The notes under the pieces are model-generated. The model searched no databases. It was given only the letters and a program-made list of their open reading frames with translations, and was not told the origin of the DNA. The position numbers and the translations under genes are program-made. Positions 5,503 through 41,107 of a stretch of 64,000 bases of DNA are shown one piece after another (the first letter of the stretch is position 1; the number at the start of each line of letters is the position of its first letter). Source of the DNA: Pseudomonas resinovorans NBRC 106553 (GTDB lineage: Bacteria > Pseudomonadota > Gammaproteobacteria > Pseudomonadales > Pseudomonadaceae); assembly GCF_000412695.1 (NCBI RefSeq), contig NC_021499.1, positions 5,580,001 to 5,644,000 on the forward strand, given 5' to 3'.

Positions 5503-7887
5503 ATGAGCAACCCCATCGCATTCGACCTGCCCATCGCCGGGATGACCTGCGCCAGTTGCGCTGGCCGAGTGGAGCGCGCCCTGAGCAAGGTGCCGGGTGT
5601 ACAGGCCGCCAGCGTCAACCTCGCCACCGAGCAGGCCCGCGTCCAGGCCCCCGGCGACAGCCTGCCGGCCCTGGTGGCGGCGGTGCAGGCAGCGGGCTAC
5701 GAGGTACCGGCCCAGCGCCTGGAGCTGGCCATCGGCGGCATGACCTGCGCCAGTTGCGTCGGCCGAGTCGAGCGCGCCCTGGGCAAGCTGCCGGAGGTGG
5801 CCGGGGTGACGGTGAACCTGGCCACCGAACGCGCCCACCTGCAGTTGTTCGGTGAAGCCGACACCTCGCGGCTGATCCAGGCGGTGGAGGCCGCCGGCTA
5901 CTCCGCCAGCCTGATAGACGAGAGCAAGCCACCGCTGGACGACGCCCAGGCACGCCTGCGTCGCGAGCGCTGGGCGGTCTTGCTGGCCCTGGTCCTGGCC
6001 ACGCCGCTGGTACTGCCGATGCTGCTGGAACCCTTCGGCCTGCACTGGATGCTGCCGGCCTGGGCGCAGTTCGCCCTGGCCACGCCGGTGCAGTTCATCC
6101 TCGGCGCGCGCTTCTATCGCGCGGCCTGGAAAGCCGTGAAGGCCGGCGCCGGCAACATGGACCTGCTGGTGGCCATCGGCACCAGTGCGGGCTACGGCCT
6201 GAGCCTCTACCAATGGTGGGCCGCGCACCCCGGCCACATGCCGCACCTGTATTTCGAAGCCTCGGCGGTGGTGATCGCACTGGTGCTGCTGGGCAAGTAC
6301 CTGGAAAGCCGCGCCAAGCGCCAGACCAGCGCCGCCATCCGCGCCCTGGAAGCATTGCGCCCGGAACACGCCACCCGCCTGCGGGACGGCCAGGAGCAGG
6401 TCGTCGCCATCGCCGCCCTGCAACTGGGCGACCTGCTGGTGGTGAAACCCGGTGAACGCTTCCCCGCCGATGGCGAGGTGAGCGACGGCCAGAGCCACGC
6501 CGACGAAGCCCTGATCAGCGGTGAAAGCCTGCCGGTGCCCAAGCAGCCCGGCGACCGCGTCACCGCTGGCGCCATCAATGGCGAAGGCCGGCTGTTGGTG
6601 CGCACCACGGCCCTGGGCGGGGAAACCGTCCTGGCGCGGATCATCCGCCTGGTGGAAGACGCCCAGGCGGCCAAGGCGCCGATCCAGAAGCTGGTGGACC
6701 GGGTCAGCCAGGTGTTCGTCCCGGCGGTGCTGCTGATCGCCTTCGCCACCCTGGTGGGTTGGCTCCTGGCCGGCGCGGGCATCGAAACCGCGCTGATCAA
6801 CGCCGTGGCCGTGCTGGTCATCGCCTGCCCTTGCGCCCTCGGCCTGGCCACCCCCACCGCCATCATGGCCGGCACCGGCGTTGCCGCGCGCCACGGCATC
6901 CTGATCAAGGACGCCGAAGCGCTGGAGGTGGCCCACGCTGTCCAGGCCGTGGCCTTCGACAAGACCGGCACCCTCACCTCCGGCAGCCCGCGCATCGCCC
7001 ACCTGGCGACCACCGACGGCGACGAGGCTCCCCTGCTGCAACTGGCCGGCGCCCTGCAACGCGGTAGCGAACACCCGCTGGCCAAGGCGGTGCTGGATGC
7101 CTGCGCCGAGCGTGGCCTCGAGGCGCCCGCCGTGGACGCCAGCCAGGCCCTGGCCGGGCGCGGCATCCAGGGCCGGGTGGACGGCCGCCTGCTGGCCCTG
7201 GGCAACCGCCGCCTGCTGGACGAGCAGGGGCTGCCGCCCGGTGATCTGGCCGCGAGCGCCAAGGAGTGGGAGGCCGAAGGCCGCACCCTGTCCTGGCTGC
7301 TGGAACTGGAGCCGCAGCGGCGCGTAATCGGCCTGTTCGCCTTCGGCGACACGCTCAAGGAAGGTGCCGCGGAGGCCGTGGCGACCCTGCGCGCACGGGA
7401 TATCCACAGCCACCTGATCACCGGCGACAACCGGGGCAGCGCGCGGGTGGTGGCCGAGGCCCTGGGTATCGAGTCGGTGCATGCCGAGGTGCTGCCGGCG
7501 GACAAGGCCGCCGAGGTCGCCGCGCTCAAGGCCGGCGGCGCCGTGGTGGCCATGGTCGGCGACGGCATCAACGACGCCCCCGCCCTGGCCGCCGCCGATG
7601 TCGGCATCGCCATGGGCGGAGGCACCGACGTGGCCATGCACGCCGCCGGCATCACCCTGATGCGTGGTGACCCGCGCCTGGTGCCGGCGGCCCTGGATAT
7701 CTCCCGTCGCACCTACGCGAAGATCCGCCAGAACCTGTTCTGGGCCTTTATCTACAACCTGATCGGCATTCCCCTGGCCGCCGCCGGCCTGCTCAACCCC
7801 GTGGTGGCGGGTGCGGCCATGGCCCTGTCGAGCGTCAGCGTGGTGAGCAACGCGCTGCTGCTGAAAACCTGGAAGCCGGAAGAATGA
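5503..7887 (+). CDS. copA: Cu(I)-exporting P1B-type ATPase CopA
   Basis: This inner-membrane pump exports cytosolic Cu(I) at the expense of ATP. The 794-residue protein has two N-terminal heavy-metal-associated domains (CxxC at C16/C19 and C82/C85). The transmembrane metal site CPC is at 442-444, the phosphorylated aspartate is in DKTGT (D486), the P1B-specific HP is at about 524, and the hinge motif GDGINDAP starts near 687. All catalytic residues are intact. The start has an AAGGAGG site. It is followed 10 bp later by cueR, so activator and pump are co-transcribed from a CueR-controlled promoter. Confidence 0.97.
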
Positions 7888-7897
7888 GGACCACCCC

Positions 7898-8299
7898 ATG
7901 AACATCGGCCAAGCCGCGAAGCAAAGCGGGCTGACCGCGAAGATGATCCGCTACTACGAAAGCATCGGCCTGCTGCCGGCGGCCGGTCGTAGCGACAGCG
8001 GCTACCGCCAGTACAGCAGCCAGGACCTGCACACCCTGGCCTTTATCAAGCGCTCGCGGGACCTGGGTTTCTCCCTCGAGGAAGTGGGCCGGTTGCTTGA
8101 GCTCTGGCAGGATCGCCAGCGCGCCAGCGCCGACGTGAAGTCCCTGGCCCGCGACCATATCGAAGCGCTGAACCGCAAGATCGCCGAGCTCGCCGGCCTG
8201 CGCGACACCCTCCAGGAACTGGTGGAGCACTGCCAGGGCGACCACCGCCCCGACTGCCCGATCCTCAAGGACCTGGAGTCAGGCGGCTGCTGCCACTGA
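7898..8299 (+). CDS. cueR: MerR-family copper regulator CueR
   Basis: This Cu(I)-sensing activator twists over-spaced promoters such as those of copZ and copA. The 133-residue protein has an N-terminal winged helix (MNIGQAAKQSGLTAKMIRYYE), a long dimerisation helix, and the metal-binding loop CQGDHRPDC. Its cysteines fall at 112 and 120, the positions used in Escherichia coli CueR. An extra CCH ends the protein. The last 35 bp overlap the convergent exporter gene on the other strand. Confidence 0.95.
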   Translation: MNIGQAAKQSGLTAKMIRYYESIGLLPAAGRSDSGYRQYSSQDLHTLAFIKRSRDLGFSLEEVGRLLELWQDRQRASADVKSLARDHIEALNRKIAELAGLRDTLQELVEHCQGDHRPDCPILKDLESGGCCH

Positions 8300-9167
8300 A
8301 GACGCGGTCGAGCGCGCTTTTGGGCAGCACGGTGATGACCAGGCCGACGAACACCAGCACGCAGGCCATCCAGCCTGCCGCGCTGAGTTCTTCGCCCAGC
8401 AGCAACCAGCCGGACAACAGGCCGGAAACCGGCACGGCCAGGGCAAAGGGCGTCACCAGGCTGGCCGGGTAGCGCTGCAACAGGAAGCTCCACAGCCCGA
8501 ACCCTACCGTGGTGGCGAGGAAGGCGATGTAGAGCAGCGCGCCGATGCCGCCCCAGCTCGGTTGGCTCAGGGCGCTGGCGATGGCTTCAGGCCCCTCGAA
8601 GACGTAGGACAGCGCCAGCAGGGGCAGCGGCGGGACCAGGCTGACCCAGCAGATCAGCCGCAGCATGTCGCTGGCGCCGCTGCGCTTGGTGGCGATATTG
8701 GCAAAGGCCCAGGCCAGCGCGGCGGCGATCACCAGCATGAAGGCCAGCAGGCTGTCCCCCAGGGGCCGGCCGAGGCCGATCAGCACCAGCCCGGAAGCCG
8801 CCAGCAGCAACCCCACCAGCCCCCGCCGGCTCGGCCGCTCGCCGAGGAACAGGGCGGCGATCAGGATGGTGAAGAACACCTGGCTCTGCAGCACCAGCGA
8901 CGACAACCCCGCCGGCATCCCCAGGTGCATGCCGACGAACAGCAGCCCGAACTTCACCACGCCCAGCAGCAGGCCGATCTGCACGATGCGCCAGAACGGC
9001 GCCGGCATCGGCCCGCGCAGGAACAGCAGCGGCAACGCCGCCAGGGCGAAGCGCAGGGCGCAGAACAGCAGGGGCGGGAAGTCCTCCAGGCCGACCTTGA
9101 TCACGACGAAATTCACGCCCCAGATCAGGGTGACCAGCAGGGCCAGGAGAATGTGCGCAAGCGGCAT
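8265..9167 (-). CDS. eamA: EamA-family exporter (O-acetylserine/cysteine exporter type)
   Basis: This is an inner-membrane drug/metabolite transporter with ten predicted membrane helices in two EamA repeats, 300 residues long. It resembles E. coli EamA through most of its length (for example LIWGVNFVVIKVGLEDFPPL and MPAGLSSLVLQSQVFFTI). That protein exports cysteine-pathway metabolites. I chose the ATG at 9167, which has GGAG about 9 bp upstream, over a GTG at 9194. The 3' end overlaps cueR tail to tail. A TGTAT/ATACA dyad lies upstream at 9218-9229 and may be an operator. Substrate assignment is by similarity only. Confidence 0.85.
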   Translation of the reverse strand: MPLAHILLALLVTLIWGVNFVVIKVGLEDFPPLLFCALRFALAALPLLFLRGPMPAPFWRIVQIGLLLGVVKFGLLFVGMHLGMPAGLSSLVLQSQVFFTILIAALFLGERPSRRGLVGLLLAASGLVLIGLGRPLGDSLLAFMLVIAAALAWAFANIATKRSGASDMLRLICWVSLVPPLPLLALSYVFEGPEAIASALSQPSWGGIGALLYIAFLATTVGFGLWSFLLQRYPASLVTPFALAVPVSGLLSGWLLLGEELSAAGWMACVLVFVGLVITVLPKSALDRVFSGSSRLTPGP

Positions 9168-9310
9168 GGCGGCGGACTCCGGAAAGATCGCCACACGCTA
9201 GCAGCCGGAGGCGGAAATGTATGGATACAGATGGCGGGGAAAACTGTGAAGGTTGTATGGCCTATCCCGAAGGGCGCGGGTGACTCTCGCCGGCAGGCAC
9301 GAAGCAGACT

Positions 9311-9394
9311 GTAGGATGGGTCGGGCGGCGTTCCGCGAGCCGGCGATACCCATCACTCCGGACAGCATGGGTATCGCTTCGCTCAACCCATCCT
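9311..9394. repeat. Intergenic palindrome interrupted by the IS110 element
   Basis: The repeat starts GTAGGATGGG (9311-9320) and should end CCCATCCTAC, as the intact sibling at 14783-14854 does. Here it stops at CCCATCCT (9387-9394), and the missing AC follows the insertion element at 10593. An internal GATACCCAT / ATGGGTATC dyad is shared with the sibling. This identifies the exact insertion point. Confidence 0.85.
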
Positions 9395-9399
9395 TGTAT

Positions 9400-9575
9400 C
9401 TCTCCAGGGCAATGAGGTTAGCTACCTTGATGCCCAAGGCCGGGAAAGCCGTTCCCATCCTGAGAGCCTGACTCTGTTTCGTAGATTGTGCTCCCGGCCC
9501 ACTTCTCCAACTCCTGAATGGTATCCAAGCCCCTCCAGCGGAGTGAGGCTGTATGAACAAGGCAAGGATCGAGAG
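9400..9575 (+). ncRNA. Bridge RNA of the IS110 element, with target and donor guides
   Basis: The region folds as expected for an IS110 bridge RNA. A 5' hairpin pairs GGGCA 9407-9411 with TGCCC 9431-9435. A stem (GGCCGGG 9438-9444 with CCCGGCC 9493-9499) encloses the target loop, and a second loop lies before the gene. In the target loop, CCCATCCT (9454-9461) equals the left target at 9387-9394. TTCGTAG (9478-9484) is the reverse complement of the right target CTACGAA at 10591-10597. In the donor loop, ATGGTATC (9518-9525) equals the right element end at 10584-10591. ACAAG (9557-9561) is the reverse complement of CTTGT at the left junction. Exact RNA ends are not known. Confidence 0.82.
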
Positions 9576-10556
9576 ATGGCGGTTATTGGAATCGATGTCA
9601 GCAAGCAAAAGCTCGACTGTCTGTGGCTACGCGACCCGGAAAGTCTGAAGGTCAAAACCAAGGTATTTACCAATCAAGTGGACGACTTCGCCGCGTTGGT
9701 TGATTGGTGTTGCACGCACACCGGAGCCACAGCCGGGGAACTGAAGGTGTTCCTTGAGGCCACCGGGGTCTATCACGAATCCTTGGCGTATTACCTGCAC
9801 GAGCGCGGCGTTCAAGTCTTTGTCCTGAACCCGGCGCAGGTCCGCGACTATGCGCGCAGCCAGGGCATTCGTGGTAAGACGGACAAACAAGACAGCCTGG
9901 TGCTCGCCCGTTTTGGCGCAACCCAGAAGGCCCGGCGCTGGTTGCCGGAAGCGCGGGAAATCCGCGAGCTGAAAGCGATGATCGTGCGCTATGAGGCGCT
10001 GCAAGAGGACCTTCAGCGCGAACTGAACCGGCGGGAAAAGGCCGAGGTCAGTCAGGCCAGCCTCAGCGTAATGGCCTCCATCGATACGATGCTCAGTGCG
10101 TTGCGCCAGGAAGCCGAGCGCCTGAAACAAGAGATCGACGATCACATCGACCGGCACGACCAGCTCAAACGCAACCGACAGCTGCTGCAGAGCATCCAGG
10201 GCATCGGGGATGTCCTCTCCCGTCATCTGCTGGCGTTTCTGCACAGCCGCGACTTTGGCACTGCCCGACAATGCGCGGCTTTTGCGGGCCTGGTGCCACG
10301 ACCTTGGGACTCCGGCTCATCGGTGAAGGGCAAACCTCGTTTGACCAAGGCGGGGCAGCCTCGACTGCGGGCCAAGCTCTACATGGCCGCGATTGTCGCC
10401 AAGCAGTACAACCCCACGGTTAGAGCGCTTTACCAACGTCTACTGGCGCGGGGAAAAGCCAAGATGAGCGCCCTGGGTGCCGCCATGCGCAAGCTGTTGC
10501 AGATTGCCTATGGCGTGCTCAAGACGCAGACACCCTATCAGCCGCAACCGACCTGA
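9576..10556 (+). CDS. IS110-family recombinase (transposase)
   Basis: This bridge-RNA-guided DNA recombinase is 326 residues long. The N-terminal RuvC-like domain shows a complete DEDD set: D7 in GIDVSK, E61 in LEATG, and D103 and D106 in KTDKQDS. A coiled-coil linker lies at about residues 140-200. The C-terminal Tnp domain has AFAGLVPRPWDSGSSVKGK, holding the catalytic serine region, and LRAKLYMAA. The gene appears intact and probably active. I chose the ATG at 9576 because translation from upstream GTG codons would run through the bridge-RNA region. The length matches IS621, the best-studied relative. Confidence 0.95.
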   Translation: MAVIGIDVSKQKLDCLWLRDPESLKVKTKVFTNQVDDFAALVDWCCTHTGATAGELKVFLEATGVYHESLAYYLHERGVQVFVLNPAQVRDYARSQGIRGKTDKQDSLVLARFGATQKARRWLPEAREIRELKAMIVRYEALQEDLQRELNRREKAEVSQASLSVMASIDTMLSALRQEAERLKQEIDDHIDRHDQLKRNRQLLQSIQGIGDVLSRHLLAFLHSRDFGTARQCAAFAGLVPRPWDSGSSVKGKPRLTKAGQPRLRAKLYMAAIVAKQYNPTVRALYQRLLARGKAKMSALGAAMRKLLQIAYGVLKTQTPYQPQPT

Positions 10557-10569
10557 TAGGGTCGGTTGC
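10544..10569 (+). terminator. Perfect hairpin over the recombinase stop codon
   Basis: GCAACCGACC (10544-10553) and GGTCGGTTGC (10560-10569) form a 10-bp stem. The 6-nt loop contains the TGA stop. There is no U-tract, so it may shape the right end of the element or protect the mRNA rather than act as a classic terminator. Confidence 0.5.
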
Positions 10570-10610
10570 ATCTGATCGGAGAGATGGTATCTACGAACTC
10601 ACCCCAGCCC

Positions 10611-10632
10611 TGTAGGGGCGAATTCATTCGCC
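10611..10632. repeat. REP-like palindrome
   Basis: TGTAGGGGCGAATTCATTCGCC lies in opposite orientation to the copies at about 4719-4740 and 29194-29215. It is a dispersed Pseudomonas-type element just outside the right end of the insertion sequence. The rest of the interval to 10716 shows no gene. Confidence 0.6.
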
Positions 10633-10716
10633 AAGCAGGCCGAAGGGCTGCCCTCACCCCAAGAGGGAGCCAAAAGTGTCGATCAGGACCGTAGGGGGGC
10701 CGTCCATGCCGACATG

Positions 10717-10741
10717 AAAAAGGGCCGCAAAAGCGGCCCTT
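10717..10741 (-). terminator. Rho-independent terminator of ftnA
   Basis: AGGGCCGC (10721-10728), an AAAA loop and GCGGCCCT (10733-10740) form a strong stem. On the minus strand it is followed by a T-run, 20 bp after the ferritin stop codon. Confidence 0.85.
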
Positions 10742-10760
10742 CTCGTTCAGGCGGAAACCA

Positions 10761-11225
10761 TCAGGCCTGCGACTGCAGGTAGTTCTCCAGGCCGATGCGG
10801 TCGATCAGGCCCAGCTGCTGCTCCAGCCAGTAGGCGTGGTCTTCCTCGGTGTCCTTGAGTTGCAGGGCGAGGATGTCGCGGCTCATGTAGTCCTTGTGCT
10901 TCTCGCACAGGGTGATGCCCTTGCTCAGCGCGGCACGTACTTCGTATTCCAGCTTGAGGTCGGCACGCAGCATGTCCGGCACGGTGTGGCCGGGATGGAT
11001 GGTGCGCGGGCGCATGTCCGGGGTGGCTTCGAGGAACAGGATGCGCTGCAGCAGGGCGTCGGCGTGCTGGGTCTCCTCCTCCATCTCATGGTTGATGCGC
11101 TCGAACAGCTTGTTGAAGCCCCAGTCCTGGTACATCCGCGAATGCAGGAAATACTGGTCCCTGGCAGCCAGTTCGCCGCGCAACAGGTCCTTGAGGTAAT
11201 CCACCACTTCGGCTTGGCCTTGCAT
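10761..11225 (-). CDS. ftnA: Ferritin FtnA (formerly BfrA type), 154 aa
   Basis: This is a cytosolic iron-storage subunit that oxidises Fe(II) and deposits the mineral inside a 24-mer. Ferroxidase ligands are visible: E18, E51 and H54 in the first half ([10 protein letters not shown]), with the second pair in [10 protein letters not shown]. The residue at position 52 is Thr, so the methionine that binds haem in true bacterioferritins is missing. This matches P. aeruginosa FtnA, which older annotations called BfrA. A strong terminator follows. No catalase gene or second ferritin lies beside it. Confidence 0.92.
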
Positions 11226-14782: not shown

Positions 14783-14854
14783 GTAGGATGGGTTGAGCTT
14801 GCGATACCCATCAACCCTGACCGCATGGGTATCGCTCCGCTCAACCCATCCTAC
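14783..14854. repeat. Intact intergenic palindrome, sibling of the IS110 target
   Basis: GTAGGATGGG (14783-14792) pairs with CCCATCCTAC (14845-14854). An inner dyad GCGATACCCAT / ATGGGTATCGC is also present. It is the undamaged form of the repeat that is split at 9394/10593. Confidence 0.85.
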
Positions 14855-40502: not shown

Positions 40503-41033
40503 TCATTCCCCCGCACCGAGAACATCCGCTTCCGCACCGCCCGCCCAATCTACCGGCAGCACGCCTCGCTCGACGAAACGGTGAAAACTTGAAAGAGGCC
40601 AATCCCGCACGGCGCCCACCAAACCATGCTTGACCGGATTGAAGTGAATGTAATCGACATGGGCAATGTAGTCCCGTTCGTCACGGATCAGATGCTCCCA
40701 AAAACGGCGCTGCCAGATGTTGGCTTCTCCCTTGGCATTGAAAGCCAGGCCAGCATCGGGCTTCTCGTGCAACAGCGAGACGAAGGCGGATTTCAGCCGG
40801 CGCACCCGGGACGAAAAGTCCGCATCGCCAGGTGGCAGGTCCATCAACAAATGCAGGTGGTCTGGCAGTACCACCAAGGCCGGCAACCCGAAAGGTGATC
40901 GCGCCATCGCCTGCCTCAAGGCACAGCGCAACTCGTCCTGAAAGCGAACGAGCAGATCCCGTTGCCGGTCCTTGAGTGCCAGGTTGATGAAGTAGCAGGC
41001 ACCTGGCACACGGGCCCTGCGGTAATTGACCAT
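40503..41033 (-). CDS. REP-associated tyrosine transposase (RAYT, Y1/HUH)
   Basis: This single-strand DNA nuclease/transposase (TnpA_REP family, 176 residues) is thought to mobilise REP palindromes. The HUH motif is HLHLLMDLP, and the catalytic tyrosine is in the helix RDYIAHVDYIHFNPVKHGLV. WQRRFWEHLIRDERD is also characteristic. The ATG at 41033 follows AGGAGG by 7 bp. REP palindromes of the same CCCGGAT family flank both ends. The gene lies between alpha-2-macroglobulin and pbpC, which are normally adjacent. Confidence 0.93.
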   Translation of the reverse strand: MVNYRRARVPGACYFINLALKDRQRDLLVRFQDELRCALRQAMARSPFGLPALVVLPDHLHLLMDLPPGDADFSSRVRRLKSAFVSLLHEKPDAGLAFNAKGEANIWQRRFWEHLIRDERDYIAHVDYIHFNPVKHGLVGAVRDWPLSSFHRFVERGVLPVDWAGGAEADVLGAGE

Positions 41034-41058
41034 CCTGCGACCTCCTTGTCGCACGGCT

Positions 41059-41107
41059 TCCCGGATTTCATCCGGGCTACAAAGGCACAAGCCCGGATGA
41101 AATCGGG
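41059..41107. repeat. Inverted REP pair (REPIN-like) at the 5' side of the RAYT gene
   Basis: Two oppositely oriented REPs lie about 10 bp apart. The first is CCCGGATTTCATCCGGGCTAC (41060-41080, read here without its first base) and the second is GCCCGGATGAAATCGGGG (41091-41107 region). Such doublets form long hairpins and are typical RAYT partners. Confidence 0.82.

Follow-up and report, generated by a model that had tools for sequence, protein, structure and literature searches.

Bridge RNAs of IS110-family insertion sequences, the targeting of REPs by such elements, and the covariation of guide and target have all been reported, as the available text of the papers describes (PMC11208160, PMC11208158, PMC11187229, PMC1525189). 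Among REPs, the GTAG-tagged ones carry GTAG beside a short palindrome, reach high copy number, and form head-to-head pairs, according to the available text of PMC3733652.

The window, a 64,000-nucleotide stretch of the 6.48 Mb genome of Pseudomonas resinovorans NBRC 106553, contains an element of this kind. It is very probably an autonomous insertion sequence, of the IS621 type within the IS110 family, working as IS621 does, a reading to which a probability of about 95% can be given. The neighbouring genes (5503-9194 and 10761-11225) are presumed from their translated reading frames to encode a copper-type P-type ATPase, a MerR-type regulator, an EamA-like transporter, and a bacterioferritin. 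The features of the locus are the following.

9311-9394 (+): occupied target, a GTAG-tagged REP pair (GTAGGATGGGT...ACCCATCCT), interrupted right after CT
9393-9394 (+): CT core, left copy; right copy at 10591-10592
9395-10592 (+): complete IS110-family element (IS621-like), 1198 bp, with five genome copies
9408-9563 (+): predicted bridge RNA, a full-length covariance-model match of 97.6 bits
9453-9461 (+): left target guide TCCCATCCT, 9 nt, matching the window flank at 8 of 9
9478-9484 (+): right target guide TTCGTAG, a 4-nt core GTAG plus a 3-nt extension
9485-9486 (+): target-loop handshake guide AU, whose first base pairs with donor position 7 (T)
9518-9525 (+): left donor guide ATGGTATC, 8 nt
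9553-9561 (+): discontiguous right donor guide, AU at 9553-9554 and CAAG at 9558-9561 (compare A157-U158 and C162-G165 of IS621)
9562 (+): donor-loop handshake guide G, pairing with target position 7 (C)
9576-10556 (+): DEDD/serine recombinase gene, 326 aa (PF01548, PF02371, NF033542; IS621 chain, E 8.1e-61)
10584-10592 (+): right end of the element, made up of the left donor and the CT core (ATGGTATCT)

Recombinase and element copies

The recombinase carries both IS110 domains above cut-off, the RuvC-like DEDD domain (PF01548, E 2.2e-25) and Transposase_20 (PF02371, E 8.8e-21), and it scores 208 bits against the NCBIfam model NF033542, 'IS110 family RNA-guided transposase' (cut-off 140). Only two solved relatives were found by sequence, IS621 (phmmer) and ISCro4 (PDB 9t56, E 5.1e-56, residues 3-322). 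A preliminary description of the locus had claimed a complete DEDD set, and the alignment to IS621 bears this out: D7, E61, D103, and D106, together with S246, fall on D11, E60, D102, D105, and S241, numbered as in the available text of PMC11208158 with a presumed chain offset of 2. The five residues are invariant in 12 aligned proteins (the window's and 11 others). The IS1111 group has its guide RNA downstream of the transposase gene; here the model match lies upstream, and the stop codon is only 36 nt from the element end. The sixth match of the protein search in the own genome is a distant, partial IS110-type relative (L011, G000:C1:3889880-3890302), with 32% identity over residues 182-323. 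A search of plasmids returned one partial match, on a Vibrio plasmid (12% of the query, 71.3% identity).

The five copies in the genome show one base difference in all. Four are identical, and L005 differs by one substitution, at the position that corresponds to 9437; such near identity indicates a recent spread. Every copy stands at the foot of a palindromic repeat, with ...CATCCT directly to its left and AC to its right. A single CT core is common to element and site (9393-9394 / 10591-10592). Uninterrupted sites read ...CCTAC..., and the same REP foot at all five copies points to insertion at a short core with no duplication of the target. The occupied REP has the CT of its CTAC foot before the element and the remaining AC past it, at 10593-10594. 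A second repeat family (with GTAGGGGCGAATTCATTCGCC) adjoins the element at 10609-10654 and has many matches of at least 95% across the genus.

By analogy with IS621, the element would leave as a circle joined at the CT core, and its left-end bridge RNA would be bound by the recombinase. The junction predicted from the element ends joins the right end ATGGTATCT to the left end TGTATCTC. The target loop would read the REP foot through its left guide and the right guide TTCGTAG, and the donor loop would read the circle junction through its left guide and AU...CAAG. The recombinase would then exchange strands at CT, without duplicating the target.

A decayed or silent remnant, intact in anatomy and no longer mobile in its host, is an unlikely reading of the element. 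The promoter-like match across the circular junction is indeed weak (7 of 12 consensus bases at best), but the single base difference among five copies implies recent movement, and in all five the recombinase frame is open and the bridge RNA is kept, as judged by covariance-model search. The preliminary description spoke of an intact, programmable system. The element is probably one, and what suggests programmability is solely the natural difference in guides between elements.

The predicted bridge RNA and its guides

The four guide segments proposed in the preliminary description were re-read by script, and all are exact. CCCATCCT (9454-9461) equals the left flank 9387-9394, TTCGTAG (9478-9484) is the reverse complement of 10591-10597, ATGGTATC (9518-9525) equals 10584-10591, and ACAAG (9557-9561) is the reverse complement of 9393-9397. 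For the left target guide, a length of 9 nt (9453-9461) is preferable to 8, and the split AU...CAAG form of the right donor guide is a detail beyond that account. The stem said to enclose the target loop is present, but it has 8 bp and not 7 (GGCCGGGA at 9438-9445 with TCCCGGCC at 9492-9499).

The comparison covered 16 left ends, those of the window, the sister genome identified as Pseudomonas sp. BN417, P. schmalbachii, and 13 others, with recombinases 41-94% identical to that of the window where measured. The relatives were searched at E <= 1e-80 or 1e-70, with the best few candidates per genome scored; they occur in at least 4 of 398 family, 9 of 369 class, and 4 of 398 phylum genomes, the own genome included each time. 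Rows L029 (partial) and L030 and L031 (28% and 27% identity) were not used. Copies appearing under several ids were counted once (L002, L006-L010, L026, L027, L032, L037, L041, L045, L049, L053, L057, L060, L062, L064, L065), and the counts exclude short DNA matches in genomes other than G000 and G014, as well as four small BN417 pieces (C18, C89, C38, and the second place on C137).

RNAalifold gave the 16 left ends a conserved structure of a 5' stem-loop, a target-loop arm, and a donor-loop arm, with two-sided changes in 28 of its 35 pairs. The target-loop helix (helix 2) has such changes in 8 of 9 consensus pairs among relatives. Paired cells reach 90.5%, against 68.7% in shuffles, none of 500 being as high, in a comparison that favours the structure since it was derived from the same alignment; sliding the partners by 1-3 columns lowers the value to 36-47%. 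A covariance model that could have placed the loops elsewhere puts a full-length bridge RNA at 9408-9563. This model was built from 12 distant relatives, with the window, BN417, P. schmalbachii, and L076 left out. Of 943 first-look candidates in the own genome, 150 were scored, and among these E 0.001 is reached by the five copies alone. Single-strand folding of the left end alone was no better than that of shuffles (z -1.34; 19 of 200 as good), and an Rfam scan of 8900-11200 gave eight matches, all under gathering scores and none in the left end.

The bases next to the two right guides (AU at 9485-9486, G at 9562) agree with the handshake pairing published for position 7 of donor and target. 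In 15 of the 16 elements, target position 7 is complementary to the base after the donor-loop right guide, including three changed pairs (C with G in L070 and L077, A with T in L073), and 114 of 100,000 permutations scored as high. Only L076 fails, an element with two stops in its recombinase frame. A first regex pass had failed 2 of 22 rows, L072 and L076; L072 failed because a later CAAG was picked, and in the alignment frame L076 alone fails. At donor position 7, agreement with the other handshake base holds for all 12 elements whose donor end was found, with one changed pair (L077).

The right guide of the window element extends beyond its core to TTC, which predicts GAA after CTAC. Three of five own copies have GAA after the site, compared with 39 of 393 unoccupied sites (Fisher p 0.009), and so do six of the seven BN417 right flanks examined. 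Own and BN417 copies together give 9 of 12 (p 4e-7, the background being the own genome only). With the first 100 sites listed as background, 0.13% of draws equalled or exceeded the summed match of the five copies. The window element and its closest sister appear to use the 3-nt extension. For P. schmalbachii it predicts AAC, which is matched in none of three copies (flanks TTA, GGT, and GCG), so its use is not general. The available text of Durrant et al. describes longer right guides in some orthologues and tests of 7-bp versions, and for IS621 it reports that lengthening the right pairing from 4 to 7 bp improved recombination at non-CT cores (PMC11208160).

REP feet as targets and the covariation of guide and flank

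The insertion site is the foot of a REP present hundreds of times in the genome, a point that the preliminary description had missed. The foot 11-mer ACCCATCCTAC occurs 393 times, against once for its reversed control, and the 14-mer ACCCATCCTACGAA occurs 39 times, against none for the control. The repeat starts with GTAG and forms head-to-head pairs, as GTAG-tagged REPs do, and it fits such a REP in its sequence (GTAGGATGGGT...ACCCATC) and high copy number, extragenic position having been looked at for the window's occupied copy. An uninterrupted pair stands elsewhere in the window, at 14783-14854. In the relative L085 (genome G005), the syntenic gap contains an uninterrupted pair that starts with GCAG; this pair need not be the same copy. 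In the main text of PMC3733652, as far as available, GTAGGATGG has no occurrence, and the REP of the window was not found there by name.

A local RAYT was considered as the spreader of the target REP and rejected, given that GGATGGGT/ACCCATCC are absent from the fetched flanks of both Y1 transposase genes of the genome. A REP-associated tyrosine transposase gene lies in the window at 40503-41090 on the minus strand (NF047646, 166.6 bits); as its fetched flanks lack these sequences, it may serve another REP family.

The other copies had been proposed as a check on the guides, and all five stand at the same kind of site with left flanks that match the guide. The 9-nt left guide matches at 8, 8, 7, 8, and 8 positions in the window copy, L001, L003, L004, and L005, and the 7-nt right guide at 7, 7, 6, 7, and 6. 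The first guide base is mismatched in all five, and L003 has one further mismatch in each half. In BN417, eight left and seven right flanks were examined; the left ones all match at 8 or 9 of 9 and the right ones all at 6 or 7 of 7. On L017 of BN417, a second, partial right end at 2619-2674, ending in GGTATCTACGGA, follows an N run, possibly from nearby or tandem copies.

Across relatives, guide and flank covary. In 15 elements from 14 genomes, the left flank matches the element's own guide at 124 of 135 positions. The best match is 9 of 9 in eight elements, 8 in four, 7 in two, and 6 in one. When flanks were dealt among elements, the mean was 92.5 (sd 3.5, maximum 111), and none of 100,000 permutations reached 124. 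The scan ran freely from position 40 to the donor guide, and every best match fell at offsets 54-64. L059 was left out (flank of 7 nt), L072 and L074, which differ in their guides, come from a single genome, and L056 (BN417) carries the guide of the window. The recombinase frames of L074 and L076 contain in-frame TGA codons (one and two, respectively), and their left guides still match their flanks, at 9 and 8 of 9. In all 12 elements that have a right flank, this flank agrees with the 4-nt core of their right guide. Ten of these flanks read CTAC, and the changed guide/flank pairs are TCAG/CTGA in L073 and TGAG/CTCA in L077. Two of the four core bases belong to the CT core, so only the other two are informative; the permutation test on the 7-nt right flank is weak (2,096 of 100,000 as high). 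The self-consistency claimed for the guides is upheld for target and donor alike, and the matches of elements to their own guides exceed chance across relatives.

A natural guide swap is offered by P. schmalbachii. Its element is about 80% identical in DNA (two copies measured), and three copies were found in the matching genome, G149. It shares its donor guides, ends, and right-guide core with the element of the window, whereas the left guide, CGCCAACCT, differs in three of nine bases. The flanks of the three copies read CGCCAACCT, CACCAACCT, and CGCCAACCT, and the copies lie at the foot of a different REP (GTAGGTTGGCG...). The guides predict the insertion target foot ACCCATCCTAC for the RNA of the window and CGCCAACCTAC for that of P. 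schmalbachii.

These data bear on whether the recombinase protein itself might recognise REP hairpins, by their shape or GTAG tag, with the guide matches as a by-product. REP targeting is discussed through transposases by Tobes and Pareja, with experiments for the IS3-family elements IS1397 and ISKpn1 in the available text (PMC1525189). Many related targets are also REP-like: a strict inverted-repeat test found a near-exact inverted GTAG copy upstream in 8 of 15 flanks (p <= 0.01), the 16th flank being too short. Recognition by the protein is nevertheless highly improbable, since the flanks track each element's own guide beyond any shared shape, the P. schmalbachii element changed palindrome and guide together, guide agrees with flank in L073 and L077 despite their lack of a GTAG right guide or CTAC flank, and 7 of the 15 flanks fail the inverted-repeat test, although some of these look hairpin-like by eye, unscored.

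On the RNA-guided reading, the left guide reads the lineage-specific REP palindrome, and the right-guide core GTAG equals the REP tag. GTAG is a tag common to the REPs of many lineages, and the right-guide core is GTAG in 13 of the 16 elements. Elements of the IS621 type could be REP-tag specialists, with the right guide held at GTAG and the left guide following the palindrome of the host, so that a lineage re-aims between REP families through as few as three of nine guide bases, as between the window and P. schmalbachii; the odds on this idea are about even. In L073 and L077 the tag was given up, right guide and flank having changed together. The idea was not found stated in words in the literature searched, which covered the running text of mostly open-access papers.

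Relation to known systems

For the bridge RNA model, the element is a clean test case provided by nature outside E. coli, with near-identical copies, hundreds of potential sites, and a sister element in which both guide and REP family have changed. Publications on IS621 and its relatives already cover the mechanism, the targeting of REPs, and reprogrammability, and the element itself is a further member of a known group.

Among Pseudomonas elements, ISPpu9, ISPpu10, and ISPa11 are of the IS110 family and insert in REPs like the element of the window, a likeness taken from their descriptions in the available text (PMC1525189, PMC11187229, PMC8450116). ISPa11 belongs to the IS1111 group and, unlike the window element, has its RNA downstream of the gene, as the accessible part of PMC11187229 states. 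The likeness of the ISCro4 transposase, the second solved relative, lies in its protein sequence.

The closest counterpart is IS621 from E. coli. As far as the available text describes it (PMC11208160, PMC11208158), it shares the recombinase domains, catalytic residues, CT core, REP targets, left-end bridge RNA, guide order, discontiguous right donor guide, and handshake bases. The two are distant in sequence, and the left guide of the window element reads a different REP. In the same text, the right guide of IS621 is described with 4 nt and was tested with 7, whereas the 7-nt right guide of the window element is apparently used in nature, which makes its recombinase a candidate enzyme with a right guide of that length.
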